Virus record (IMG/VR): IMGVR_UViG_3300038825_000871
Span: 1 to 36,495 of that record
DNA from: a virus
Length of the DNA: 36,495 nt
Strand: one strand, 5' to 3'
How positions within the stretch are numbered: the first letter of the stretch is position 1; each line of letters opens with the position of its first letter. Below are positions 2,545 to 30,224 of the stretch, one piece after another. A program made the position numbers and the translations under genes. A model generated the notes under the pieces. That model worked only from the letters and a program-made list of their open reading frames with translations, was not told the origin of the DNA and made no database searches.

Positions 2545-3358
2545 TTACTACGGAGTCATACTCTATTTTTTCTCCAGATGAATGATATGCTTTCATAACA
2601 GTATCATTGTACCCTTTGACAAACTCCATAAATGATCTCATACGAGCATCGTCTTCTTCACTCCATGTCACTGACTTCTGAGGTGTTAGCTCTGCATGGA
2701 AGTAGATGTTTCCACCTTTTTTCTTCCGTACTGAAGACAGTCCAATATTCATAAGCCACATAGGTTGCTTCTGTCTACTGAGACTCTTTAAGCAGTCAGC
2801 TACAGGTGTAAAGTTAGCTCCTTTTGCATACCACACGCAAGGAACGTCTTTGACAGTAGTTTTACTACCATCTTTATTTACAGCATTCTCAAAAGATACT
2901 AGACCGTAAAGATTCTGAGTACATTTAATACTCTTCTGTACAGCCCACTCTGGACTATCTTTTGGCAATGCCTCTAAGGTATTGTAGTCTAATTTCCCAC
3001 ACTTCTTACCTCCTGCAGTGTCATAAAAGTCACTGCCAAAGGAAGGAGCCTGTACTGTTTGGCAAGAGAAAGCACTAGCTTCATTATCCCAAACAAAGTA
3101 GGAATAAGTACGCATAAACACACGCATAGTAGCTTTCTCACCATATACAGGCCCTTCTGGTGGGGTAGTCAGACTGAACCAGCCTCTTGGAAGAGCATTA
3201 CCATCAAAATCTTCTGTAGCATGGTTGATAGCCAGTCTGCTTACAGATGCTTTCGTAGTATTGTGATCCAATTGACCAGTCAGTTTCATCAGCTCCTCTG
3301 TAGAAACCTTATCTAAGTTTTCTGGCAGAGCAGTATCCATTGTGGTTATTTCAGTCAT
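2537..3358 (-). CDS. Putative single-stranded DNA-binding protein
   Basis: A 273-residue protein between DNA polymerase and the exonuclease, a place where T7-like and marine podoviruses often carry the ssDNA-binding protein. The visible pattern is beta-rich with many aromatic residues (ALPRGWFSLTTPPEGPVYG, MRVFMRTYSYFVWD, KGGNIYFHAELTPQ). This would suit an OB-fold, and the last residues are mildly acidic (EKIEYDSVVNE). There is no diagnostic motif, so the function is inferred from position and composition. The start ATG overlaps the polymerase stop (ATGA). Confidence 0.55.
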   Translation of the reverse strand: MTEITTMDTALPENLDKVSTEELMKLTGQLDHNTTKASVSRLAINHATEDFDGNALPRGWFSLTTPPEGPVYGEKATMRVFMRTYSYFVWDNEASAFSCQTVQAPSFGSDFYDTAGGKKCGKLDYNTLEALPKDSPEWAVQKSIKCTQNLYGLVSFENAVNKDGSKTTVKDVPCVWYAKGANFTPVADCLKSLSRQKQPMWLMNIGLSSVRKKKGGNIYFHAELTPQKSVTWSEEDDARMRSFMEFVKGYNDTVMKAYHSSGEKIEYDSVVNE

Positions 3359-5409
3359 GATTTATATATCTCCTTCATGTCTAACCAATTGTTACCTATT
3401 TTAATCTCGATTCCTATCGGCATATCGTAATCAACATTGTATCTTTTCTTACACTCTTCAGGCAAAGACAACATAGCTTCTTTCATTGTCTCTACAGCTA
3501 AATCCTGTTCGTCTGGATGTACATCAATTACAATGGAATCGTGAACCGTATTACATATTATACTCAACATTTGCTTATCTGTCAACAACTTTTTTAACTT
3601 AATTAATGCAATAGGCAGGAGATCGGCTGTAGCAAACCCTTGTACAGGATAATTTTTTATTGCTGTAGAGTTAGATACTCCACCATACCTCATTCTATAT
3701 ACATTACTAAAGTTATAATATCGACCTGATGGAAGTGTAATCCGATTGTATGTGATGGCATCATTCTGTAAAGTCTCATGCCACTGTGCTATCTTACTAT
3801 ACTTCTCTTTAAATGCTCGATAATACTCCATCTGTTTTGGTGTACCTAAGAACCCTCCATACAAAGGCTTAAACGTATCAGCTTTTGCTTCCTGTCTAGA
3901 CACACCCAGCACAGATGCTGTAAACGAATGTACATCAACATCATTTCTGACATCTTCGTACACTTTATTATCCTTTGCTAAAAAGCCGGCAACCCTAAAC
4001 TCTAGCTGGGAATAATCTCCTTCAAGTATATGTCCACCCTCCCATCTGCTAACTACTACCTTACGTACAGGAAACGTACCACCTCGTGGCATGTTCTGGA
4101 AGTTAGGATTCCTAGAAGATAATCTTCCTGTAGAGGTAACACATTGCATATAATGTGGATGGATTCTACGTCTGTCATCTAAACCTTTTTCTATTCCTTC
4201 TATAAAGGTTTTCAAATAAGTTTTAATTGCATTGTATCTTATATAACTTTCCATAAATGTTTTTTGTTCTGGCTTGGCTGTAACTACTAGACCTTCTAGT
4301 GTAGGCCTATCTGTTTTAAAACCATGTACAGTAAGATCTAATGTGCTTCTTGGTTGCATTCCCAACCCTGCAAAATCTCTAGTTTGCCTGTAGACAACAC
4401 CTGTTTTGTTACAAGTTTTACAAATACGTTTTTGTTTGCCTACCGTACCATCTCTCTTCAAGGCAAACTTATATCCTATACCATTACATGCTGTACATCT
4501 TTGCATGACTGTCTTAAACAGAGGCTTAGTCAAACGTACTATACCTTGTTGAAATGCTTGTGCACTCATAGTTTTTGGTCTTCTCTTCTTTCTTGTGTTA
4601 CCTCGTAACTCATAACCTAGATTAAAACTACTAGCCCATTGTTTTTTATTCAGTACAGCCCTAGAAAATATAATCTTAGACCTATCTTCTGGACTGTCTA
4701 GATTGACAGGAGTATCACCCATTAATTTTTTAACCTCACTGTTAAGATACTTTTCTAGTTCCTGTACTTCCTTTGTATAGGTAGCTTTGATTTCAAATAA
4801 ATTTTTAAGACTTATCTGTAACCCGTTGTTCTCTACATCACACAACACATCACAGAACTCATTCATCAAATCATTAGTACTCTTGAGAGAATCAGGCATG
4901 TTACTTAGCTGTGCTTCATATAATTCTTTTGTTATCTGTACATCTGCTTCACCGTACTCCTTGACTATAGACCAAGGTATGCTCTCAAACGATACATTTT
5001 TTTTCATATATTCTTCGATTAAACCAGTTTTCTTTTGTGGCAGTGCATATCGTTCACAGCACTTGGCTAATGACAACGGAACCTTCTCCCCCCCATGCAA
5101 GATATATTCTGCTATCATAGTATCATGAACCTTGCCTGTATAGATAAACCCACAAGCTCGTAACCACTTTAGATCAAATTTTATGTTATGACCTACTAAT
5201 AAATCTGTGTCATCAAGAACACCCTGTAATATGTCTCTAGCTTTTTCTGTAGGCTCTTGCTCTTTGTGATAGAAGCATAAGTAATTCTGTTCATATCCAT
5301 GTATATAACCAACAGACACCAACATGTTTCCTGTATAGGGATCTGCATCTGATTTCTTATCTTCATTTACACTGTATGTTGTTTCTATATCTAACCAAGC
5401 TATTCTCAT
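3355..5409 (-). CDS. polA: Family A DNA polymerase with 3'-5' exonuclease and DnaJ-like zinc insert
   Basis: A 684-residue replicative polymerase. The exonuclease domain shows D7-I-E9, N75-x3-D79 and Y152-x3-D156, so proofreading should be active. The polymerase domain shows motif A DYSQLE (D465-E470), the O-helix R505-x3-K509-x3-F513-x3-Y517-G, and motif C HDS (H623-D624). F513 matches E. coli Phe762. Between the halves, at 305-333, are C-T-A-C-N-G-I-G and C-K-T-C-N-K-T-G, a pair of DnaJ zinc motifs. This arrangement is reported, as I recall, for phage HMO-2011. The insert lies close to where T7 polymerase has its thioredoxin-binding loop, so it may recruit a processivity partner (inference). 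Confidence 0.95.
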   Translation of the reverse strand: MRIAWLDIETTYSVNEDKKSDADPYTGNMLVSVGYIHGYEQNYLCFYHKEQEPTEKARDILQGVLDDTDLLVGHNIKFDLKWLRACGFIYTGKVHDTMIAEYILHGGEKVPLSLAKCCERYALPQKKTGLIEEYMKKNVSFESIPWSIVKEYGEADVQITKELYEAQLSNMPDSLKSTNDLMNEFCDVLCDVENNGLQISLKNLFEIKATYTKEVQELEKYLNSEVKKLMGDTPVNLDSPEDRSKIIFSRAVLNKKQWASSFNLGYELRGNTRKKRRPKTMSAQAFQQGIVRLTKPLFKTVMQRCTACNGIGYKFALKRDGTVGKQKRICKTCNKTGVVYRQTRDFAGLGMQPRSTLDLTVHGFKTDRPTLEGLVVTAKPEQKTFMESYIRYNAIKTYLKTFIEGIEKGLDDRRRIHPHYMQCVTSTGRLSSRNPNFQNMPRGGTFPVRKVVVSRWEGGHILEGDYSQLEFRVAGFLAKDNKVYEDVRNDVDVHSFTASVLGVSRQEAKADTFKPLYGGFLGTPKQMEYYRAFKEKYSKIAQWHETLQNDAITYNRITLPSGRYYNFSNVYRMRYGGVSNSTAIKNYPVQGFATADLLPIALIKLKKLLTDKQMLSIICNTVHDSIVIDVHPDEQDLAVETMKEAMLSLPEECKKRYNVDYDMPIGIEIKIGNNWLDMKEIYKS

Positions 5410-7881: not shown

Positions 7882-7913
7882 AAGTAATCCCTGTTAAGTT
7901 AATAATATTAACT

Positions 7914-7941
7914 ATTATACAGCTGACAAAAATCTTGTCAA
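7914..7941 (-). promoter_or_regulatory. Leftward early promoter (sigma-70 consensus)
   Basis: On the minus strand, TTGACA (7941-7936), a 16-base spacer and TATAAT (7919-7914) match both sigma-70 boxes exactly. It drives the replication operon starting at 7881. The -35 box and spacer contain a dyad, TGACA-N7-TGTCA, which would place a repressor on the promoter. Confidence 0.85.
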
Positions 7942-8012
7942 CATATATTTTTTTTATAAAAACTTGCTAGTAATGGAAAAGGTACTAGTAATGGATATAT
8001 TATATAAATAAC

Positions 8013-8040
8013 TTGACAAGATTTTTGTCAGCTGTATAAT
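8013..8040 (+). promoter_or_regulatory. Rightward early promoter (sigma-70 consensus)
   Basis: TTGACA (8013-8018), 16 bases, TATAAT (8035-8040). It is the mirror copy of the leftward promoter, with the same internal TGACA-N7-TGTCA dyad at 8014-8030. The next gene's ATG begins at 8048, only 7 bases after the -10 box, so the transcript would start at or next to the start codon. Confidence 0.85.
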
Positions 8041-8047
8041 AATAATT

Positions 8048-8287
8048 ATGGATGATTTACAAGACGAATTTGAAAGTGAATTAATAGAAATTATTAGTGA
8101 TTATAACACTAAGGGTTTAGGTACCCATGAACAAATATCTATACTTTCTTATTTATGTTTTGAACTTTGTAATAAAATATTTATGGATGTAAGATTTGGG
8201 TATACTCACGTTTTAACCATGCTTATGCAAAGAATAATATTTGACATGAATGACGATCAAGACGATACCAAAAAAATATTGCACTAG
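8048..8287 (+). CDS. Small acidic hypothetical protein, first gene of rightward arm
   Basis: A 79-residue helical protein starting MDDLQDEFESELIEIISDYN and ending in an acidic patch (DMNDDQDDTKK). It has no known motif. It lies right behind the rightward consensus promoter with no room for a ribosome-binding site, so it may be translated from a leaderless mRNA. As the first rightward gene it is a natural candidate for a very early host takeover or regulatory factor (inference from position only). Confidence 0.7.
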   Translation: MDDLQDEFESELIEIISDYNTKGLGTHEQISILSYLCFELCNKIFMDVRFGYTHVLTMLMQRIIFDMNDDQDDTKKILH

Positions 8288-15689: not shown

Positions 15690-15852
15690 CAATCCTAACA
15701 AAGCAGATTTAGATAAAGATGGCAAACTTAGTGGCTATGAAAAAAAACGAGGTAAAGCTATAGAAATAGCTATGAGAAAGAAAAAAGCCTACGGTGGTGC
15801 AGTTAAAAAATATGCTATGGGTGGTGGAGTACGAAAGGCTCGTTATAAATAA
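15682..15852 (+). CDS. Small EF-hand-loop protein with basic glycine-rich tail
   Basis: A 56-residue protein from GTG 15682, chosen because AGGAG lies 7 bases upstream; the frame opens at 15658. Residues 9-20, DLDKDGKLSGYE, match the 12-residue EF-hand calcium loop at every key position (D, D, D, G, L, S, E). The rest is basic and ends KKYAMGGGVRKARYK. A similar tail (KQYARGGSTRKVNR) ends the 93-residue protein at 20114-20395. A minor virion or DNA-binding role is inferred. Confidence 0.6.
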   Translation: MLNNPNKADLDKDGKLSGYEKKRGKAIEIAMRKKKAYGGAVKKYAMGGGVRKARYK

Positions 15853-20113: not shown

Positions 20114-20395
20114 ATGGGTGATCTTACAGTAAAAGGAAACAGAATAAACTATAGTCCAGACGAAGTAAAAGGACTTACATTAAGCAAAGTTATTAAAGCT
20201 GATAACAAAGGTGATGCTATGGCTATATTTAGAAATAGATATGACCTATCTCCTAATACGACATTAGATGTAGATGCTATGAAAAAAGAAGGCAGAGACG
20301 GTAGTATTAATTTTAAAATCACTGCAAGATTTAATAAAGGTGGATATGTAAAACAATATGCTAGAGGTGGCAGTACACGAAAGGTAAATAGATAG
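20114..20395 (+). CDS. Small basic protein with Gly-rich tail
   Basis: A 93-residue protein starting MGDLTVKGNRINYSPDEVKG. The body looks like an alpha/beta domain (DEVKGLTLSKVIKADNKGDAM). The tail KGGYVKQYARGGSTRKVNR mirrors that of the EF-hand-loop gene at 15682. It couples to the next gene by TAGTG. A minor structural role is inferred from the shared tail and location. Confidence 0.6.
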   Translation: MGDLTVKGNRINYSPDEVKGLTLSKVIKADNKGDAMAIFRNRYDLSPNTTLDVDAMKKEGRDGSINFKITARFNKGGYVKQYARGGSTRKVNR

Positions 20396-21198: not shown

Positions 21199-22794
21199 AT
21201 GAGAGCCAAACTTGCTACTCAAAAAAAGCTTTCTGCTAAGAAAATACAAGCTGATAAGCTAACAAAGCAGGCAAAAAAAGCTAGAGCAGCATCAAAAAGG
21301 GCTCAGGAGGCATCTAAAAAGGTAGATGATGCATTAAAAGGTAGAGGAAAGTCCGTTGTCACTACAGATGATCTAAAAAACGTACCTAAAGCACTTAGAG
21401 ATCACCTGAAAGACCATGACGTTGTATTTAGACCGAATGAAGGGCCTCAAACTACCTTTTTAGAGTCTCCAGAAAGAGATATATTATACGGAGGAGCAGC
21501 TGGAGGAGGTAAATCATATGCACTTTTAGCTGATGTGCTAAGAGATGCATCAAATCCTAATCATAGAGGGTTGTTGTTAAGAAGAACACTAGCTGAATTA
21601 ACAGAGTTAATAGATAAAAGTAGACAAGTATACACAAAAGCATTTCCCGGTGCAGTATTTAAGCAAGCTAAATCAACATGGGAGTTTCCGTCTGGGGCTA
21701 AAATATGGTTTTCTTACGTAGATGATGACCGAGATGTAACAAGATACCAAGGACAAGCTTTTAATTGGATAGGAATAGACGAAATAACACAATATCCTAC
21801 TCCATACACATGGAATTACCTAAGATCTAGGCTTAGAACAACAGATCCAGCACTTGGTATGTACATGCGTTGCACAGCAAACCCCGGAGGTGTAGGAGGT
21901 TGGTGGGTAAAGAAGATGTATTTAGATCATGCACCACCCGGAGAGCCTTTTTGGGCTAGAGATTTTGATAATGGAGAGATATTAAAGTATCCTCCTAGAC
22001 ATACGAAAGCAGGGGAACCTTTGTTCCTAAGAAAATTTGTTCCTGCAAGATTAACAGACAATCCATATCTGTTTGATGACGGTCAATACGAAGCAATGTT
22101 GATGTCATTGCCTGAAGTAGAAAGAAAGAGACTACTTGATGGAGATTGGGATGTAGCCGAAGGTGCAGCCTTTACAGAGTTTAGTAAAAGTATGCATGTT
22201 TCTGAACCATTTGACATTCCAGAGGGTTGGGCAAGAGTAAGATCAGGTGACTATGGTTACAGCAGCCCTTCTTGTATACTTTGGGGTGCAATAGACTGGG
22301 ATAACAATCTTTGGGTGTATAGAGAACTATATGTTAAAGGATTTACCGGTGAAAGGCTTGGAGATACAATAGCTATGATAGAAAAAGACGATCCACCCAT
22401 GCAATTAGCTGTTTTAGATGCAAGTTGTTGGAACAGAACAGGTCTAGGACCTAGTATAGCAGAAACAATGATAAAAAGAGGTGTAAGATGGATACCATCA
22501 GACAGAAATCGTATGGCAGGAAAGATAGAAGTACACAGAAGGTTAGCTTGTGATGACTATGGAAATCCTCGTGTTCGTGTTTTTTCCACTTGCAATAATC
22601 TTATCAGAACTTTGCCCACGTTGCCTCTGTCTAAGACTAATCCTGAAGACGTTGATACAAAAGCTGACGACCATGCGTATGATGCACTAAGATATATGGT
22701 AATGAGTAGAACTTTAGTAAATGTACATAACACACATAGAATGACAAGGCATACACAAAAATATGAACCCCAAGATCAAGTATTTGGATATTAA
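21199..22794 (+). CDS. terL: Terminase large subunit
   Basis: A 531-residue packaging motor from the first ATG (probably longer; see the entry at 21118). The N-terminal 50 residues are basic coiled helix. Walker A is GGAAGGGKS (98-106), Walker B is FNWIGIDE (to 194-195), and the coupling motif is in CTANPGG. The nuclease domain shows D351 in RSGDYGY, D407 in LAVLDASCW and the late DDHAYDALRY acidic cluster. It pumps and cuts DNA at the portal. The neighbours portal, scaffold and capsid follow in the usual order. Confidence 0.95.
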   Translation: MRAKLATQKKLSAKKIQADKLTKQAKKARAASKRAQEASKKVDDALKGRGKSVVTTDDLKNVPKALRDHLKDHDVVFRPNEGPQTTFLESPERDILYGGAAGGGKSYALLADVLRDASNPNHRGLLLRRTLAELTELIDKSRQVYTKAFPGAVFKQAKSTWEFPSGAKIWFSYVDDDRDVTRYQGQAFNWIGIDEITQYPTPYTWNYLRSRLRTTDPALGMYMRCTANPGGVGGWWVKKMYLDHAPPGEPFWARDFDNGEILKYPPRHTKAGEPLFLRKFVPARLTDNPYLFDDGQYEAMLMSLPEVERKRLLDGDWDVAEGAAFTEFSKSMHVSEPFDIPEGWARVRSGDYGYSSPSCILWGAIDWDNNLWVYRELYVKGFTGERLGDTIAMIEKDDPPMQLAVLDASCWNRTGLGPSIAETMIKRGVRWIPSDRNRMAGKIEVHRRLACDDYGNPRVRVFSTCNNLIRTLPTLPLSKTNPEDVDTKADDHAYDALRYMVMSRTLVNVHNTHRMTRHTQKYEPQDQVFGY

Positions 22795-22798
22795 TTAG

Positions 22799-24883
22799 AT
22801 GGCTAAATTAAACAGTGAAATTTTAGAAGAATTATTATTTCCCAATGGAGTAGAAAATGCTTCAGATACTAATGTATTTATTGAAAAGTTTAAAAATAAA
22901 ACTTTAACAGTAAGAGATGCCTTAATTATACATGCTCAAGATACTGGGATACGTTTTGATCAACGAGAGGTAGCTGCAGATGCTACCACTAAACAAATGC
23001 AAGACATACTTTTAGGTGAAGGAAAAGAAAAACCTACTAGGTCAACAGGATTTGTTACAAAAGTAAAAAAATTTAAAAAAATATTAGACAGTAATTTTTT
23101 TGATGTTACATATGATTTAAATGAATTAAATAAACTTGTAGGAGCAGATATTAAAATTGCTGTTCAAGCAGTAGACGGTTCAACTAAAAAATTTTTTGAT
23201 GATAATAAAACAGCCATTGGTGGTGGAGAAAAGGTAAACTATCCTAGAGATCCTATAACAAAAGTACCTCAAAAAAGAGGTGGAATGGCTTTTGATGAAG
23301 TTCCCCCTCCTAAAAATGTGTGGCCTCAAATTATAGAAGCTACAGAAAATATAGCAAAAGATCCAAAATATGGTCCAGCCTATGCAAAAGCTTTTTTTCT
23401 ATCAGCAATACTTCCTATAAGAGGAAATGATATAACTCAAATGACTGTTAGTAAAAAATTTGCAGCTGGATTAGAAACAGTACGACCTAATTTAGCCATA
23501 AATGCTGATGGGGTATTAACTTTAAGTTTAGAAAGTATGTTAGGTAGAGGGCAAAAAGGATTACCAAGAAGAGTTGTTTTAACTCCTTTTTTAAATAATT
23601 TATTGAGGGCAGATTATGATGATGCTATAAAATCTGGTAGAAATTATTTATTTAATGTAGAAACATTTGATGCTGATGGTAATATTATAAAAGGTAAAAA
23701 CATACTGCCTACAACAACAAAGTTATCTAATGCAGCCAGAGAGTATTTTGTTCCTCTTATGAAAAATTTTGAAGATATATTAGGTAGAGAAGTTGTTGGT
23801 ATAAAAGATTTAAGAAAAATAGCTTCAAGTACTATAGCTATGCATCCTCGTATAAACAATCCAGAAATAGCTATAGAACTATTAGGTCACACAGGAGATA
23901 AAGGTTTTATTAGAGGTGCTAGTAAAATGGCAGCAAGATCTTATTTAAGTAATATTGCTGGTGTAGGTGCAGAAGATAAAATTACAAACGTATTAGCTCT
24001 TTATGAAACTTTAATTGCAGATACATTAGAGTATTCTGATGTTAATGATTTAGCTAGAAATTCTGGAATATCTTTAGCAGACGAAACATTACATATAGAA
24101 AAAGTAGAAGATTTAGGTGAAAAACAAATAACAAGAGTTTTAACAGCTGAAGAAATACAAGATAATGAGAAAAAAAGAAAAGCACAATTAGAACTGTTTT
24201 TATCAAAAAAAGCAAAAGAAGTAGCAGAAACAAAAGTTGCTACTGAAGAAAAACTTATGAAAGCAGAAGAAACAAAAGCAGATAGAAAAAAAAGGTTTGG
24301 AGATAACAATGCTCCTGCAGGGGATAAAATACTAACTAAAAAAAGTCCTTTTTTACAACAAGTAGCAACAATGGCAGGCATTGCCCCAGAAGAACTAGAA
24401 GGTTTAACTGCATCTGAAATAAGAGAAAAAGTAAAGGGAAAAGCTATAAAAGGTGGTACAAAAGGAGCAATAGGTGGTATGGCTGTTTTAGGTTTAGCTT
24501 CATATGGTATTGATCCTGCCGGTGCTGCAGCACAAGATTTAGCCTATGCAGGAACATCGAAAGTAATAGGTTTAGCAGGAGGACCGGGAGTTACTGCAGG
24601 TATGGTAGCAGCAGAATCAGTTACTCCAACAGTAGTTGCAGATGACGTACAAAATCTTGTTTCAGATAAAAACTTTATGGAGATGGGAAGAATTTCTGAT
24701 ATTACTGGAGAAAGTCCTTTAAATGTAGATACAAGAGCACAAGCTTTAACTGATATACAAGATATAGAAGCTCAAGCAAGTAGAGCTACAGAAGGTGGAA
24801 GTTTTGAACATCCACAAATAACAAGAGAAAAGCAAGCCAATCAAGCAAGATTACAAGAACAGTTATCTGAAATTGGTTTTTAA
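22799..24883 (+). CDS. Large protein with tyrosine-recombinase-like domain
   Basis: A 694-residue protein between terminase and portal. Residues about 170-390 follow the tyrosine recombinase catalytic order: R208 in LPIRGNDITQM, K254 in a hairpin-like segment, R339 in IKDLRKIAS, H364 in ELLGHTG and Y382 in AARSYL. The box II His is Lys here. Residues 440-510 are a charged coiled coil, and 555-600 are Gly/Ala-rich and hydrophobic (GGTKGAIGGMAVLGLASYG). The position points to a virion protein rather than a lysogeny integrase. Enzymatic activity is not assured. Confidence 0.6.
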   Translation: MAKLNSEILEELLFPNGVENASDTNVFIEKFKNKTLTVRDALIIHAQDTGIRFDQREVAADATTKQMQDILLGEGKEKPTRSTGFVTKVKKFKKILDSNFFDVTYDLNELNKLVGADIKIAVQAVDGSTKKFFDDNKTAIGGGEKVNYPRDPITKVPQKRGGMAFDEVPPPKNVWPQIIEATENIAKDPKYGPAYAKAFFLSAILPIRGNDITQMTVSKKFAAGLETVRPNLAINADGVLTLSLESMLGRGQKGLPRRVVLTPFLNNLLRADYDDAIKSGRNYLFNVETFDADGNIIKGKNILPTTTKLSNAAREYFVPLMKNFEDILGREVVGIKDLRKIASSTIAMHPRINNPEIAIELLGHTGDKGFIRGASKMAARSYLSNIAGVGAEDKITNVLALYETLIADTLEYSDVNDLARNSGISLADETLHIEKVEDLGEKQITRVLTAEEIQDNEKKRKAQLELFLSKKAKEVAETKVATEEKLMKAEETKADRKKRFGDNNAPAGDKILTKKSPFLQQVATMAGIAPEELEGLTASEIREKVKGKAIKGGTKGAIGGMAVLGLASYGIDPAGAAAQDLAYAGTSKVIGLAGGPGVTAGMVAAESVTPTVVADDVQNLVSDKNFMEMGRISDITGESPLNVDTRAQALTDIQDIEAQASRATEGGSFEHPQITREKQANQARLQEQLSEIGF

Positions 24884-24908
24884 TTAACAACAATAAAAGG
24901 AGAAAACT

Positions 24909-25142
24909 ATGCCTCAAGGTGTAAAAAGTGCTTATAAATCTGGTTATATTATGGGCCAGATGAGTAAACAAGGGGAAATGAACGAAGCTAATGAAAGTTC
25001 ATTATATCGTGAAAAATTAGACTCAAATGTTATGGGTGAAAATTCAGGAGAATTTAAACAATCACAAGATTCTAAAACAGCCGGTACTAAACATACTGGT
25101 GATTTAGGCATGATTATGGGTTCTTCAAAAAGTATAGGTTAA
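24909..25142 (+). CDS. Small hypothetical structural-region protein
   Basis: A 77-residue protein, MPQGVKSAYKSGYIMGQMSK and onward, Ser/Gly/Asn/Met-rich and probably disordered. AAAAGGAG stands 6 bases before the start. It sits directly ahead of the portal gene. No family is recognised. Confidence 0.6.
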   Translation: MPQGVKSAYKSGYIMGQMSKQGEMNEANESSLYREKLDSNVMGENSGEFKQSQDSKTAGTKHTGDLGMIMGSSKSIG

Positions 25143-25159
25143 TAAGTTAGGATAAAAAT

Positions 25160-27271
25160 ATGGATGATCCTATTGATGTATCTGCAGAAATGTCTCCGGA
25201 AGAAGCTCCGGGTTTAGTATCTTTAATAAAAGGAAGATTAAAAGAAGCAGAAGATGGTCGACAAATACATGAGCAACGATGGTTAAGTGCTTATAAAAAT
25301 TTTAGAGGTATTTATGACTCTAGCACACAATATACAAGTACTGAAAAGTCTAAAGTATTTATAAAAATAACAAAGACTAAAGTACTTGCTGCTTATGGTC
25401 AAATTGTAGACATTTTATTTGCTAATAAAAAATTTCCTTTAACAGTAGAGTCTACACCTGTGCCTGAAGGTATAGCTGAGTTTGCTCATTTAAAAACTCC
25501 TTTAGATGATATGCCTACGAGTCCTGTAGGATATGAAGGTGACGGTAGAGAATTACCTCCCGGAGCTACTGAAGCTACTGAACAAATGGATTATTTAGGA
25601 GGATTAGCTCAAGAGTATGAAGGTGCTCCTTTAGCAGAAGGTATGTCTAAAACAGGAGAACCTCAAATATCTCCTGCAGCAGAAACTGCTAGAAGAATGG
25701 AGAAATTAATACATGATCAGTTGACAGGATCTAATGCTATTACAACCCTTAGAAATTCTATATTTGAATCTGTATTGTTAGGCACTGGAATAGTAAAGGG
25801 ACCTTTTACTCATATTAAAACTGTTCACAAATGGGAAAAAGATGAAGAAGGTAGTAAGGAGTATACTCCGTATTATAAAGACATACCTAAAATAGAATCT
25901 GTATCATGTTGGGATTTGTACCCTGATCCTGTTGCTACAAGTATTGATGATTGTGATTATGTTATACAAAGACATAAGATGAATAGAGAACAATTACGTA
26001 ATCTTATGAGTATGCCTATGTTTGACCCTGAAGCTATTAGGGCTGTATTATCAGGAGGAGGAAACTATGTTGATAAATACTTTGAAAGTGTTATAAAAGA
26101 CGATGATCAACAGATGCGTAATTCCAGTGAACGATTTGAAGTATTAGAGTATTGGGGTTGCATTGATTCTGATATATTAGAACAAGTAGGTATTCCCGAT
26201 ACCGGATCAGATCCTTTAGGACAAGTACAGGCTAACATTTGGGTATGTGGTGGACAAGTATTAAGAGCTGTAGTAAATCCATTTATACCAATGCGTATTC
26301 CTTTTCAAATATTTCCTTATGAAATAAGCCCTTACCAAATATGGGGTATAGGCATACCAGAAAATATGGAAGATGCACAGCTATTAATGAATGGTCATGT
26401 TCGTATGGCTATAGACAACTTATCTTTAGCAGGAAACCTTGTATTTGATGTAGATGAAACATCTTTAGTACCGGGTCAAAATTATGATATATTTCCCGGT
26501 AAAGTATTTAGAAGACAATCTGGTGTTACCGGCACAGCTGTAAATGGTATAAAGTTTCCTAATACAGCAGGTGAAAACATACAGATGTACGATAAAGCAA
26601 GGCAACTTGCTGATGAAGAAACTGGTATACCCAGTATAATGCATGGGCAGACAGGTGTTACTGGCACAGGCAGAACAGCAGCAGGCTTATCTATGTTATT
26701 AGGATCAGCCGGCTTATCCATAAAGACTGTTATAAAGAATCTTGATGATCATCTTTTGAAACCAATGGGAGAAGCTTTCTTTCAATGGAACATGCAGTTT
26801 AATGAAGATAATCCAGATATAATTGGTGATCTTGAAATTAAACCAAAAGGGGTGGCTTCTGTAATGCAAAAAGAAGTACGTTCACAAAGATTAACTGCTC
26901 TTTTACAAACAGTTAGTAACCCAATGTTAGCTCCTTTTATTAAAATACCTAATCTAATAAGAGAACTAGCAATATCTCAAGATATAGATCCAGACAGTCT
27001 TGTTAATGATATGAACCAAGCACAGATCTATGCTGAAATGTTAAAAGGAATGCAAAATGCCCAACAAGAACAACAACCAGAATCAGGAGACCCTCAAGCA
27101 ATTGGCACCAATGGTCAACAACCCGGAGGCATGGGAATCCCTTCACAAACTTCTGCAGGGACTACACCTACAGACCTTACAGGGGCTGGTAACGGCACAA
27201 TCGGAGTTGGAGGTGTACCGGCTGCAGGGGAAAGCCAGTTTGCTGGGAATGCTTCTCAACCTGAAGAATAA
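25160..27271 (+). CDS. Portal protein
   Basis: A 703-residue protein in the portal position. The N-terminus (AEDGRQIHEQRWLSAYKNFRG) and body (SVSCWDLYPDPVATSIDDCD, YVIQRHKMNREQL) match the podoviral 'head-to-tail connector' type, as does the PFQIFPYEISPYQIWGIGIP segment. It forms the ring through which DNA is packaged and ejected. The last 70 residues are Gln/Gly/Pro-rich and low in complexity, and the DNA there also encodes another protein in a second frame. Confidence 0.88.
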   Translation: MDDPIDVSAEMSPEEAPGLVSLIKGRLKEAEDGRQIHEQRWLSAYKNFRGIYDSSTQYTSTEKSKVFIKITKTKVLAAYGQIVDILFANKKFPLTVESTPVPEGIAEFAHLKTPLDDMPTSPVGYEGDGRELPPGATEATEQMDYLGGLAQEYEGAPLAEGMSKTGEPQISPAAETARRMEKLIHDQLTGSNAITTLRNSIFESVLLGTGIVKGPFTHIKTVHKWEKDEEGSKEYTPYYKDIPKIESVSCWDLYPDPVATSIDDCDYVIQRHKMNREQLRNLMSMPMFDPEAIRAVLSGGGNYVDKYFESVIKDDDQQMRNSSERFEVLEYWGCIDSDILEQVGIPDTGSDPLGQVQANIWVCGGQVLRAVVNPFIPMRIPFQIFPYEISPYQIWGIGIPENMEDAQLLMNGHVRMAIDNLSLAGNLVFDVDETSLVPGQNYDIFPGKVFRRQSGVTGTAVNGIKFPNTAGENIQMYDKARQLADEETGIPSIMHGQTGVTGTGRTAAGLSMLLGSAGLSIKTVIKNLDDHLLKPMGEAFFQWNMQFNEDNPDIIGDLEIKPKGVASVMQKEVRSQRLTALLQTVSNPMLAPFIKIPNLIRELAISQDIDPDSLVNDMNQAQIYAEMLKGMQNAQQEQQPESGDPQAIGTNGQQPGGMGIPSQTSAGTTPTDLTGAGNGTIGVGGVPAAGESQFAGNASQPEE

Positions 27272-27305
27272 TTATGACGAAATGAAAAAGGAAAGTAATA
27301 GATAA
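27057..27305 (+). CDS. Small helical protein overprinted on the portal 3' end
   Basis: An 82-residue protein starting MPNKNNNQNQETLKQLAPMV, then a compact helical part (NPEAWESLHKLLQGLHLQTL, ELEVYRLQGKASLLGML). AAAAGGA is 7 bases before the ATG. 215 of its 249 bases lie inside the portal gene in another frame. The 'W..l...l......l......ev.rLQG....l..l..l' pattern is that of small proteins downstream of portal in marine podoviruses (recalled). The portal product is low-complexity here, so this frame may be the constrained one. Confidence 0.6.
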   Translation: MPNKNNNQNQETLKQLAPMVNNPEAWESLHKLLQGLHLQTLQGLVTAQSELEVYRLQGKASLLGMLLNLKNNYDEMKKESNR

Positions 27306-27307
27306 TC

Positions 27308-28771
27308 ATGGCTGTAGATACTGAACAAGGATTTTTAGGAAGTCCACCTACTGAAGCATCACCAATATCTGTACAAACAGATTTTGGATTAGGTGAACAA
27401 AGTGCTTTTTTAACAGAAGCAGATGTAGATCCTAGTCAACCTTATCAGGTAACAACTTTTCAAGAAACTATAGCTGCTTCTCCTGCTATCTCTGTAGGAG
27501 GAGGTTATGATCCATATGCTAACGACCTTACAAATATAATATCTCCTTTTACTGATCCAGAACAAATTAGAGAAAGAAGAGAAAAAGAAAAAAAACAAAG
27601 AGAACAAGTTAGAGTTTTTGGGGGAGCAGATCCATTATTTCAATATGAACCTAATTTAAATATAACTTCTCCAGATGTGCCCCAATTTGCTGCAAACGTA
27701 CCTGATCCTTTTTTAGAGTTTTCTCCTACACCAAGAACAGACCTTACTAGAAAAGGCCAAGCATATGGTTTAGAAACAGAAGTAGATGAAGATTATTATT
27801 CAGCAAAATACGATCCTAGAAGACCGGGGATAGACGGACCTACACGAGCTGAAGTAGCAGGAAATATACTTCAAGAATATGGGATGGAAAAGGTTGAAAA
27901 AGCAGGATCAGAACTTGCTGGAGATATGATTACAGATGCATATAAATCATATTTTCCTACTAGGTATCCTTCATCAGCTTTTGGAGGAGGTATGCCAACT
28001 TCTTGGTCAGGAACAGGATATGGAGGAAGCACTTCTAGTGCTGTTGCTACCGGAGGAGCACAAGCTTTACAAACTTCAGGTGCTGGAGTAAATGTATTAG
28101 GACAACCTATGTACGGTAGTACAGCTCCAGCAGGTGCTAGTATGGGTGCAAAAGCATTAGGATATGCAGGAGCAGCTTACGGTCTCTATAATGCAGCAGA
28201 AGCTTGGGGAAACAAAGATTATGCAGGAGCTGTAACAAATACAGCATGGGCTGTAGCATCTGTAAATCCAGCAGCTTTACCCTATGCTATAGGTTTAGAA
28301 GCAATTAGTCAAATTGGAAGAGCTTTTGGTTGGTGGGGAAAGAAGCCAAAACCGGGATTTGGTGGTGCAGAGATAAGATTAAATAAAGAAAATAATAATT
28401 TAGAATTTGAAACAACCTATGGATACAATGGGTTTGATCCTAGCCAAGCAAAACAACATGCAAATCAAGCTGTACAATTTTTAAATGGTTGGTCTAAAAA
28501 GTTTGGAATGAAATTAAATTATGAAAAAGCAAACCAAGCTATAGTTGAAGCAAAAATACGAGGAGGTAACTACCTACGAAGAATAGATGTAAGTCCTTGG
28601 AAAGATGGATCAGGCAGTTCTTCTGAAATGATTGAAAGATGGATAAACTCTGGTGCATATGAAGGTAATCCTACATACTTTAATACAGATCTTGGACAAA
28701 GAGTAGGGTTTTCTTCTCAAGAACAATATGAAAAAGAAGTAAATAAATATGCTAAAAGCATTTTTGGGTAA
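27308..28771 (+). CDS. Putative internal virion protein
   Basis: A 487-residue protein. It starts MAVDTEQGFLGSPPTEASPI. The N-terminal 200 residues are Pro/Asp-rich, the centre is Gly/Ser/Ala-rich with weakly hydrophobic helices (GAKALGYAGAAYGLYNAAEA, AVASVNPAALPYAIGLEA), and the C-terminus is folded. This fits proteins stored in the capsid and ejected with DNA. It lies between portal and the lytic transglycosylase protein. Assignment is by place and composition. Confidence 0.6.
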   Translation: MAVDTEQGFLGSPPTEASPISVQTDFGLGEQSAFLTEADVDPSQPYQVTTFQETIAASPAISVGGGYDPYANDLTNIISPFTDPEQIRERREKEKKQREQVRVFGGADPLFQYEPNLNITSPDVPQFAANVPDPFLEFSPTPRTDLTRKGQAYGLETEVDEDYYSAKYDPRRPGIDGPTRAEVAGNILQEYGMEKVEKAGSELAGDMITDAYKSYFPTRYPSSAFGGGMPTSWSGTGYGGSTSSAVATGGAQALQTSGAGVNVLGQPMYGSTAPAGASMGAKALGYAGAAYGLYNAAEAWGNKDYAGAVTNTAWAVASVNPAALPYAIGLEAISQIGRAFGWWGKKPKPGFGGAEIRLNKENNNLEFETTYGYNGFDPSQAKQHANQAVQFLNGWSKKFGMKLNYEKANQAIVEAKIRGGNYLRRIDVSPWKDGSGSSSEMIERWINSGAYEGNPTYFNTDLGQRVGFSSQEQYEKEVNKYAKSIFG

Positions 28772-28781
28772 AGGAATAATT

Positions 28782-30224
28782 ATGTTAAGTTTACAAGATT
28801 TAGATCATGAGTTCATAGGTAGAGGTGATCCTCATGTAGAATCATTACGTTTAAGACAACAGTATGAACAAAATTTAACACCAGAAGAATTACAAAGATT
28901 AGTAGAAATATCTCCTGTAGTAAATGAATTTATGGCTTTAGATTTTAAAGGAAGAACAGGAACTTTTCCTGAAGGGCAAAGAGACATGGATATAAATCAA
29001 GTTCCTGAAAATGAACAGATGGATTTAGAAGAATATGGTCGTATGAGAGGATTAGATGAAGAGTACATAGACGAAGTTATGACTGGTGTAAATGGTCCAA
29101 AAGAAGTGTTTATGGGAGATGCTCCTCCTGTAAATAAAGCACCTATTATGGGAGATGCTCCTCCTGTAAATAAAGCACCTATTATGGGAGATGCTCCTCC
29201 ACAAGGGTTGGCTTTAGGAACAGATGATTTACAACAACAAGAACAAATACAAGGTATGCCACCTGTACAAGAGGTGTTACCGGGAGCTGGAACAGGGTTA
29301 ATACAAGATCCAATAGATCCAAATGCTTCTCCTGTTGCAGATACAGTACCAATGGATAATGTAGAAGAAGGTTCTGCTATTATAAATGCAGCAGCTGTAA
29401 AAATTGTAGGTTTAAAAGATCTTATGAAAGCTAGAGAAGAAGCTAGGGACATATTACGATCTCAAGGCACCATAATAGATGATGAAAAACAATATCAAGG
29501 AGATGGTGTAGATATAGCTACTTCTAATGGAGAATTTAAATTTAGTGCTAAAGAATCTGAAATAATAGGTAAAGAAACTATAGATAAATGGAATAAAAAA
29601 GGTGAAGCTGAAACCGAAGAAGCTATAGCTAATGAACAAGCACAAAACCCAAATCAAGTAGGTGTTCAACCAGTAATGGGGGCTAGAGAAGGCATGATAG
29701 TAGAAAACCCTCCACCTCCACAACAAAAACCTATTGTTGATAGTACTTTTGTAGATATAATAAAGCCGGCAGTTATACAAGTAGAAAGTACAAATAGACC
29801 TGATGCAGTTAGTAAAAAAGGTGCAGTAGGATTAATGCAAGTAACACCAATAGCTGTAAAAGACGTATTAATTAGAGGAAATAATAAAAAACAACACACA
29901 CCAGAAACTCTTCCTACATGGTTAAAGAAAAATAATTCAGGAGAGTATGATATGAAAGATGCTGAAACAAATAAATGGTTTGGTACACAATATTTAAATA
30001 TGATGTATAAGCAATTTAAAAATCCAGAATTAGCTCTTTTAGCCTATAACTTAGGTCCTTCATCTACACAAGAATGGATAAATAACGGATCAATGTTAAG
30101 CACACTAGGAAAAGAAGCTTTAGAATACGTACCAAAAGTTTATAAAGCATTAGGGAGAACCCCAGAAATTTTTGCAGGAGATAAATATATAAAAGCTTTA
30201 GAAAAAGCTAATAGAAAAAATTAA
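28782..30224 (+). CDS. Internal virion protein with lytic transglycosylase domain
   Basis: A 480-residue protein from ATG 28782 (AAAGGA 6 bases upstream); the frame from 28749 has no ribosome site. The C-terminal SLT domain has catalytic E335 in VIQVESTNRP, then KGAVGLMQVTP and ELALLAYNLGP. It would open peptidoglycan during DNA ejection, as T7 gp16 does. The middle holds a tandem 12-residue repeat (MGDAPPVNKAPI). The central helix DLMKAREEARDILRSQG and the acidic linkers look virion-like. Confidence 0.85.
   Translation: MLSLQDLDHEFIGRGDPHVESLRLRQQYEQNLTPEELQRLVEISPVVNEFMALDFKGRTGTFPEGQRDMDINQVPENEQMDLEEYGRMRGLDEEYIDEVMTGVNGPKEVFMGDAPPVNKAPIMGDAPPVNKAPIMGDAPPQGLALGTDDLQQQEQIQGMPPVQEVLPGAGTGLIQDPIDPNASPVADTVPMDNVEEGSAIINAAAVKIVGLKDLMKAREEARDILRSQGTIIDDEKQYQGDGVDIATSNGEFKFSAKESEIIGKETIDKWNKKGEAETEEAIANEQAQNPNQVGVQPVMGAREGMIVENPPPPQQKPIVDSTFVDIIKPAVIQVESTNRPDAVSKKGAVGLMQVTPIAVKDVLIRGNNKKQHTPETLPTWLKKNNSGEYDMKDAETNKWFGTQYLNMMYKQFKNPELALLAYNLGPSSTQEWINNGSMLSTLGKEALEYVPKVYKALGRTPEIFAGDKYIKALEKANRKN
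29112..29200 (+). repeat. 36-bp in-frame tandem repeat
   Basis: Two exact 36-base copies (29112-29147, 29148-29183) and a partial third (29184-29200), each starting ATGGGAGATGCTCCTCC. They encode MGDAPPVNKAPI repeats in the transglycosylase protein. Exact identity implies recent duplication. Confidence 0.95.

Follow-up and report, generated by a model that had tools for sequence, protein, structure and literature searches.

Podoviruses of the HMO-2011 type are dominant and widespread in the sea, and most members of their subgroups I and III carry an integrase gene (int) upstream of the replication module (PMC9038755). Subgroups IV-X are described as having no identifiable lysogeny genes and as possibly obligate lytic (PMC9038755). 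The phage CRP-3 integrates in tRNA-Met (PMC9038755, PMC6918029); in its genome, int lies at 448-1521, near the replication module, and the portal gene comes directly after the terminase large subunit (TerL) gene. Podovirus ejection proteins have been described as very divergent, with low identity and swapped enzyme domains (PMC8954989). In the open-access literature, we found neither a recombinase between TerL and portal in HMO-2011-type phages nor a packaged phage tyrosine recombinase. Here, we describe a gene for a predicted tyrosine recombinase at this place in one such phage.

The window and its late genes

The window is the whole 36,495-bp virus record IMGVR_UViG_3300038825_000871, which by its sequence features is an HMO-2011-type marine podovirus. 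Its DNA polymerase (3355-5409) bears a CxxCxGxG-type zinc motif (CTACNGIG, with an imperfect second repeat, CKTCNKTG), a feature given for HMO-2011-type phages (PMC9038755). Among the matches listed, the best ones of TerL (46-54% identity) and portal (45-53%) were to phages of Pelagibacter, Roseobacter and Puniceispirillum that belong to the HMO-2011 group or lie near it. The features around the gene under study, which encodes the protein P0001, are collected in Table 1.

Table 1. Positions of genes, domains and active-site residues in the window (residue numbers are those of P0001).
Feature	Position	Strand	Basis or conservation
TerL	21199..22794	+	phrog_979, E 1.7e-58
Block divergent between window and L010, flanks highly identical	22795..30224	+	Edges at 22795 and 30225
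Tyrosine recombinase with C-terminal extension (694 aa, P0001)	22799..24883	+	ORF, predicted fold, conserved catalytic tetrad
Core-binding-like helical domain, residues 5-141	22811..23221	+	AlphaFold helices
Catalytic domain, about residues 160-425	23276..24073	+	AlphaFold and structural alignments
R208 (Arg I)	23420..23422	+	70/70 slot proteins; 29/29 in P0001's group
K253 (beta-hairpin Lys)	23555..23557	+	19/23 in 23-protein alignment
R339 (Arg II)	23813..23815	+	69/70 slot proteins; 29/29 in P0001's group
H364 (His III)	23888..23890	+	29/29 in P0001's group
Y382 (nucleophile)	23942..23944	+	29/29 in P0001's group
Long predicted helix, residues 450-500	24146..24298	+	AlphaFold
Gly/Ala-rich weakly hydrophobic stretch, residues 553-646	24455..24736	+	AlphaFold, mostly low-confidence
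Small ORF (77 aa) in the recombinase-portal gap of the window's clade	24909..25142	+	ORF list
Portal	25160..27271	+	PF23899, E 5.8e-23; phrog_332, E 9e-79
487-aa hypervariable protein, candidate ejection or internal protein	27308..28771	+	Divergence equals that of the recombinase
SLT transglycosylase-domain protein, candidate internal virion protein	28749..30224	+	PF01464, E 2e-20

The ORF of P0001 starts after a gap of 4 nt behind TerL and, as the earlier note had it, lies between terminase and portal. It thus sits together with the portal and internal-protein genes, as podovirus ejection genes do. The transglycosylase protein also matched phrog_342, "internal virion protein with endolysin domain" (E 1.4e-7), and the 487-aa protein had no significant match among Pfam and PHROG families. 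A 36-bp tandem repeat lies within the transglycosylase-domain gene (29110-29200). Between 20400 and 32700, sigma-70-like sites were fewer than expected (31, against 40.2 in shuffles), and neither the window nor the 13 phage stretches retrieved contained a tRNA gene.

The only exact inverted repeat of at least 17 nt in the window is a perfect 29-nt repeat at 7913-7941 and 8013-8041, which carries TTGACA and lies in the gap that separates the leftward replication arm from the rightward one; none flanks the structural genes. From its sequence, the region 7905-8049 resembles a symmetric promoter or operator of the divergent type. We rejected the repeat as a target of the recombinase on account of this promoter-like character and its absence from the other loci, few of which reach that region.

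Fold and active site of P0001

P0001 itself matched no Pfam family, PF00589 included, and no PHROG family. The AlphaFold model built from a 70-row alignment had a mean pLDDT of 75.4, with 268 of 694 residues at 90 or above and values mostly above 80 across the first 360 residues. Foldseek by itself gave weak matches to this model (best PDB E 0.032, to XerH, and above 0.001 in both libraries). When its candidates were re-aligned in the PDB, tyrosine recombinases headed the list, with archaeal Xer 4a8e (Z 11.1, rmsd 3.5, 178 residues aligned), Tn1549 Int 6en2 (Z 10.0, rmsd 5.1, 256 aligned) and lambda Int 1z19 (model residues 36-381, Z 9.5, rmsd 5.1, 248 aligned), followed lower down by Cre, XerH, Flp, TopIB and the SroF repressor. 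The recombinase-like domain proposed from the letters alone is therefore borne out by the model, including the superposition on lambda Int, for which an unrelated fold had been named as the refuting outcome.

The earlier note had also counted 170 extra N-terminal residues. This stretch exists, and since the alignments to lambda Int, Cre and XerH begin at model residues 10-36, it is largely a normal core-binding domain and not an addition. In the predicted structure, P0001 is a complete tyrosine recombinase, with a core-binding and a catalytic domain. The coiled coil and the Gly/Ala hydrophobic stretch that had been suspected agree with the helix and the Gly/Ala-rich segment predicted behind the catalytic domain.

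The residues R208, R339, H364 (in LLGH) and Y382 are located where they had been placed before; the catalytic lysine is K253, one residue from the position first assigned, as residue 254 is a glycine. The structural alignments end with model residue 365 opposite XerH 336 and Cre 316, and the nucleophile segment (377-391) was poorly predicted (pLDDT below 50). P0001 and the proteins that resemble it in the N-terminal part form a group of 29, with a mean pairwise identity of 22% and a minimum of 10.5%. As R208, R339, H364 and Y382 are the only invariant columns of this group, the integrase order of residues is not a product of chance. The conservation of R/R/H/Y proposed as a check thus holds among these relatives. 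Arg I and Arg II were each also present in 52 of 52 representatives of clusters at 70% identity. The His II position is K336 in P0001 and varied in the 23-protein alignment (T 12, A 4, K 3, S 3, N 1). His II is usual and not universal in tyrosine recombinases, and TopIB works with R-K-R-H-Y. The active site R208-K253-R339-H364-Y382 is apparently intact, from which catalysis may be presumed, and we consider it highly probable that the protein belongs to the tyrosine recombinases and has kept a conserved, probably working active site.

Slot proteins and block divergence among relatives

Scans based on TerL and portal returned 144 viral-contig loci (L009-L152). In 99 distinct metagenomic contigs with both genes, counted after removal of seven isolate loci, the window itself and duplicates from one contig, the slot between them held an ORF of at least 500 aa in 75, an ORF of 250-400 aa in 14 and neither size class in 10. 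The 250-400-aa ORFs formed a separate BLAST cluster, and the recombinase signature was not seen among them. In 63 of 64 loci, the slot ORF started 2-8 nt past the last sense codon of TerL. There were 94 distinct slot ORFs. Once 15 members of the short family and 9 partial sequences had been set aside, 70 ORFs of 500 aa or longer, with P0001 among them, were aligned; 64 of the 75 large slot ORFs are in this alignment, and the other 11 were identical copies or were not taken in. No such gene was in the slot of isolated HMO-2011-type or related phages (8 loci: L002-L008, L168), and in a sister clade (L065-L085, TerL about 65% identical) the slot held a non-recombinase protein of ~322 aa or nothing large. 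C-terminal tags of the form KGGxV...YAxGGxxRK were common to small ORFs (window about 15700-15852 and 20114-20395) and to the non-recombinase slot proteins of this sister clade (L065, L066, L069, L072 and other ~322-aa proteins).

The 70 aligned proteins had a mean column identity of 13%, and 21 of them matched PF00589 (E up to 0.01), as 21 did phrog_1 "integrase". Clustering by N-terminal similarity gave groups of 29, 15, 8, 7, 7, 2, 1 and 1. The His III column contained H in 44 and Y in 19 proteins and the Tyr column Y in 47, so that the conservation of these two residues holds for P0001's group and not for every slot protein; L089 (group 4) has a lysine at Arg II. The invariants of the 15-member group 1 include Arg I, Lys, Arg II, an arginine 23 residues past Arg II, and Tyr. 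The model of its member L058 (mean pLDDT 67, about 90 in the catalytic region) matched Brujita Int (Z 12.1), Xer 4a8e (Z 11.1), SroF (Z 7.9) and YopR (Z 6.8), and several of the alignments stopped at L058 residue 299-300, opposite lambda Int 333-334, which places this arginine near the His III position. An arginine therefore seems to stand in for His III in the modeled group 1, and some slot proteins may thus be something other than ordinary recombinases.

Close relatives of P0001 were not found by tblastn against 50,697 phage records, nor a related record by megablast of window 12001-36495; a single-sequence scan of viral contigs with P0001 gave 16 pattern matches, none confirmed. Likewise, tblastn with the slot proteins L128, L148, L134 and L061 found none, and PDB searches with a profile from the 23-protein alignment or with the single sequence L148 returned no recombinase.

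The divergence of the slot protein has a sharp left edge. Against L010, the window was ~97% identical through TerL, diverged over the 7.4-kb block of Table 1 and then returned to 79-99% per bin. This block comprises the recombinase at its left edge, the 77-aa ORF, the portal, the 487-aa protein and the transglycosylase; within it, identity was patchy, at 35-93% per 200-bp bin, with 84% of the portal residues identical. When the window was compared with 14 loci, the BLAST match ran through TerL and ended at 22793-22812 in 12, and in loci long enough, nucleotide identity returned near or past the recombinase stop codon. The two exceptions were L010 (slot protein 37% identical) and L166 (74%). 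Between the window and L166, dN/dS was 0.42 for the recombinase, 0.42 for the 77-aa ORF, 0.28 for the 487-aa protein and 0.53 for the transglycosylase, against 0.06 for TerL and 0.08 for portal, the recombinase value being partly inflated by a low dS (0.37, against 0.65 for TerL). Across 23 close loci, the median similarity was 0.02 for the slot protein and 0.03 for the first post-portal protein, whereas TerL and portal reached 0.68. With TerL and portal taken into account, the partial rank correlation between recombinase and first post-portal protein was 0.136 (permutation p 0.04); it was not significant for the last pre-scaffold protein (0.081, p 0.234) or the scaffold (0.072, p 0.207). As the correlation is weak, the case for packaging made below is not rested on co-divergence, and linkage could account for the inheritance of the block.

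The tails of the slot proteins (the last 32%) matched at E up to 1e-6 across different recombinase groups in 28 pairs involving 35 of the 70 proteins, with up to 87% identity over 110 aa, which means that head and tail assort at least partly independently. By this comparison, podovirus ejection proteins are the closest behavioural match to the modularity of the recombinase. Tail hydrophobicity was modest: mean Kyte-Doolittle values exceeded 1.0 in 47 of 70 tails and 1.6 in 2, and no tail exceeded all 50 of its own shuffles. A transmembrane tail is thus unsupported.

Possible roles of the recombinase

Considering these results, the reading we find most plausible, though we hold it tentatively, is the virion-carried recombinase that the earlier note gave as one of two options: P0001 would be a recombinase capable of catalysis that is inherited together with the ejection module, enters the virion and leaves it with the genome. 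The predicted fold and the conserved tetrad support the enzyme part well; packaging, ejection, catalysis and a DNA target are what we infer. The enzyme, whose exchangeable tail is about 270 residues long, would be made from the late structural gene string, and the tail would dock the enzyme onto internal proteins or the portal while the virion assembles. The recombinase would be packaged, then ejected along with the genome, and in the new cell would cut and rejoin a specific DNA site, with the genome that has just come in, a locus of the host or a competing element as candidates. The putative presence in the virion fits the slot position in the late gene string, the co-inheritance of the block with portal and transglycosylase, the raised dN/dS, the exchange of tails and the ejection-protein-like divergence and mosaicism; the lack of a tRNA-type attP near the gene and of PF00589 matches outside the slot ORF in 27 records, both set out below, point the same way. 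Against it stand the sufficiency of linkage, the patchy identity of the block, the modest hydrophobicity of the tails, the arginine of group 1 and the isolates without the gene.

An ordinary phage integrase, stable or transient in its integration, could instead sit in the late gene string in place of the canonical HMO-2011-type int, which we regard as unlikely, if a serious alternative. The catalytic tetrad is conserved, int is present in some HMO-2011-type subgroups, T7-like cyanophages are described as integrating without lysogeny (PMC8776855), and a change of integration site could drive fast divergence. PF00589 was matched in 5 of the 27 records, each time in the slot ORF (assigned by coordinates in G010, G018 and G023 and by ORF size in G002 and G004), so that no second integrase was found by this family outside the slot; the search misses the window's own slot protein, and a second divergent integrase could escape it too. 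Among the three contigs with terminal repeats (G008, G010, G012), G012 falls into the clade whose slot protein has 322 aa, which leaves G008 and G010 as the only apparently complete genomes with a slot recombinase, and both are among the 27 records.

Against an integrase, the canonical int sits near the replication module instead, and a T-arm scan found no tRNA 3' half in the window, G008, G010, G012 or the 94 slot ORFs with 200-bp flanks; in CRP-3, the positive control, it recovered one tRNA end (0.05 expected). The earlier remark that no attachment site is visible accordingly stands for tRNA-type sites and reaches no further. A distant relative with a slot recombinase (G018, 61 kb) has a tRNA-end-like element at 43633 (L161 3633), 18 kb from the gene; ARAGORN calls no tRNA there, and the only PF00589 match of this relative is its slot protein. 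Neither a repressor nor an excisionase was among the best 25 of 73 PHROG matches for 43 ORFs of G008 or the best 25 of 61 for 32 ORFs of the window. In genome contigs, within scans that reach close relatives only, recombinase patterns found no prophage relative, and portal patterns found one 4.1-kb MAG contig. This contig (L169) carries a 66% identical portal in a Winogradskyella MAG and is possibly a misbinned phage.

It is rather improbable that the protein serves the phage's own DNA as a resolvase or an end-processing enzyme that is produced late, beside the packaging motor, to resolve dimers, circularise the genome or process concatemers. Cre and Xer act as resolvases; both are among the structural matches, and the gene is immediately 3' of TerL. 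However, a housekeeping enzyme needs no gene-for-gene replacement between phages with 97% identical TerL, and no conserved site was found, the 29-nt repeat being confined to the window among the few loci that cover its region.

The option of an integrase fold re-used as structure, raised in the earlier note, would make P0001 a catalytically dead DNA-binding regulator or structural part of the virion, in the manner of SPbeta MrpR and phi3T SroF. The model of P0001 does match SroF (9rgl, Z 6.2), as the group 1 model matches SroF and YopR, and His II is not conserved. MrpR is described as lacking counterparts of Arg I, His II and His III (PMC10516654), whereas the slot proteins keep both arginines almost throughout. 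A tetrad that is the sole invariant of so divergent a group strongly disfavours this option, and we consider it very improbable. Least of all do we expect a DNA invertase or a recombinase of the shufflon type that would switch genes such as those for tail fibres, as tyrosine recombinases such as PsrA are described as doing elsewhere, given that no exact inverted repeat of at least 17 nt flanks the structural genes of the window.

P0001 is a divergent, apparently intact recombinase that Pfam and PHROG miss, and three quarters of the contigs have such a large ORF in the slot. Either the lifestyle calls for HMO-2011-type phages need revision, or a recombinase became a virion-delivered tool. In the latter case, these proteins might constitute a new class of phage virion cargo, a possible but doubtful extension: polymorphic site-specific DNA recombinases with interchangeable docking tails, acting at DNA entry and diversifying like weapons or immunity factors, unlike integrases.

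Several known systems share part of this character. XerA/XerH, lambda Int, Tn1549 Int and Cre have, like P0001, a core-binding and a catalytic domain with Arg I, Lys, Arg II, His III and Tyr; P0001 differs in its C-terminal extension of about 270 aa and its late structural gene string, and the slot family differs from classical tyrosine recombinases in K, T, A, S or N at the His II position and in its extreme divergence. The canonical integrase of the same phage group, CRP-3 gp02, lies at another locus, near the replication module, with a tRNA-Met site and with TerL directly followed by portal. MrpR/YopR and SroF are likewise phage proteins that have the tyrosine recombinase fold without being simple integrases, MrpR being described as a repressor that has lost catalytic residues (PMC10516654), whereas P0001 keeps the tetrad. 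The podovirus ejection proteins (T7 gp14/15/16, P22 gp7/16/20) are, like the recombinase, products of late genes with low identity and mosaic enzyme domains; no recombinase domain is among those described in the consulted part of the source (PMC8954989), and P0001 would be present in the virion by analogy. The N4 virion RNA polymerase, an unrelated enzyme, is described as being packaged and ejected with the genome, as we propose for P0001.
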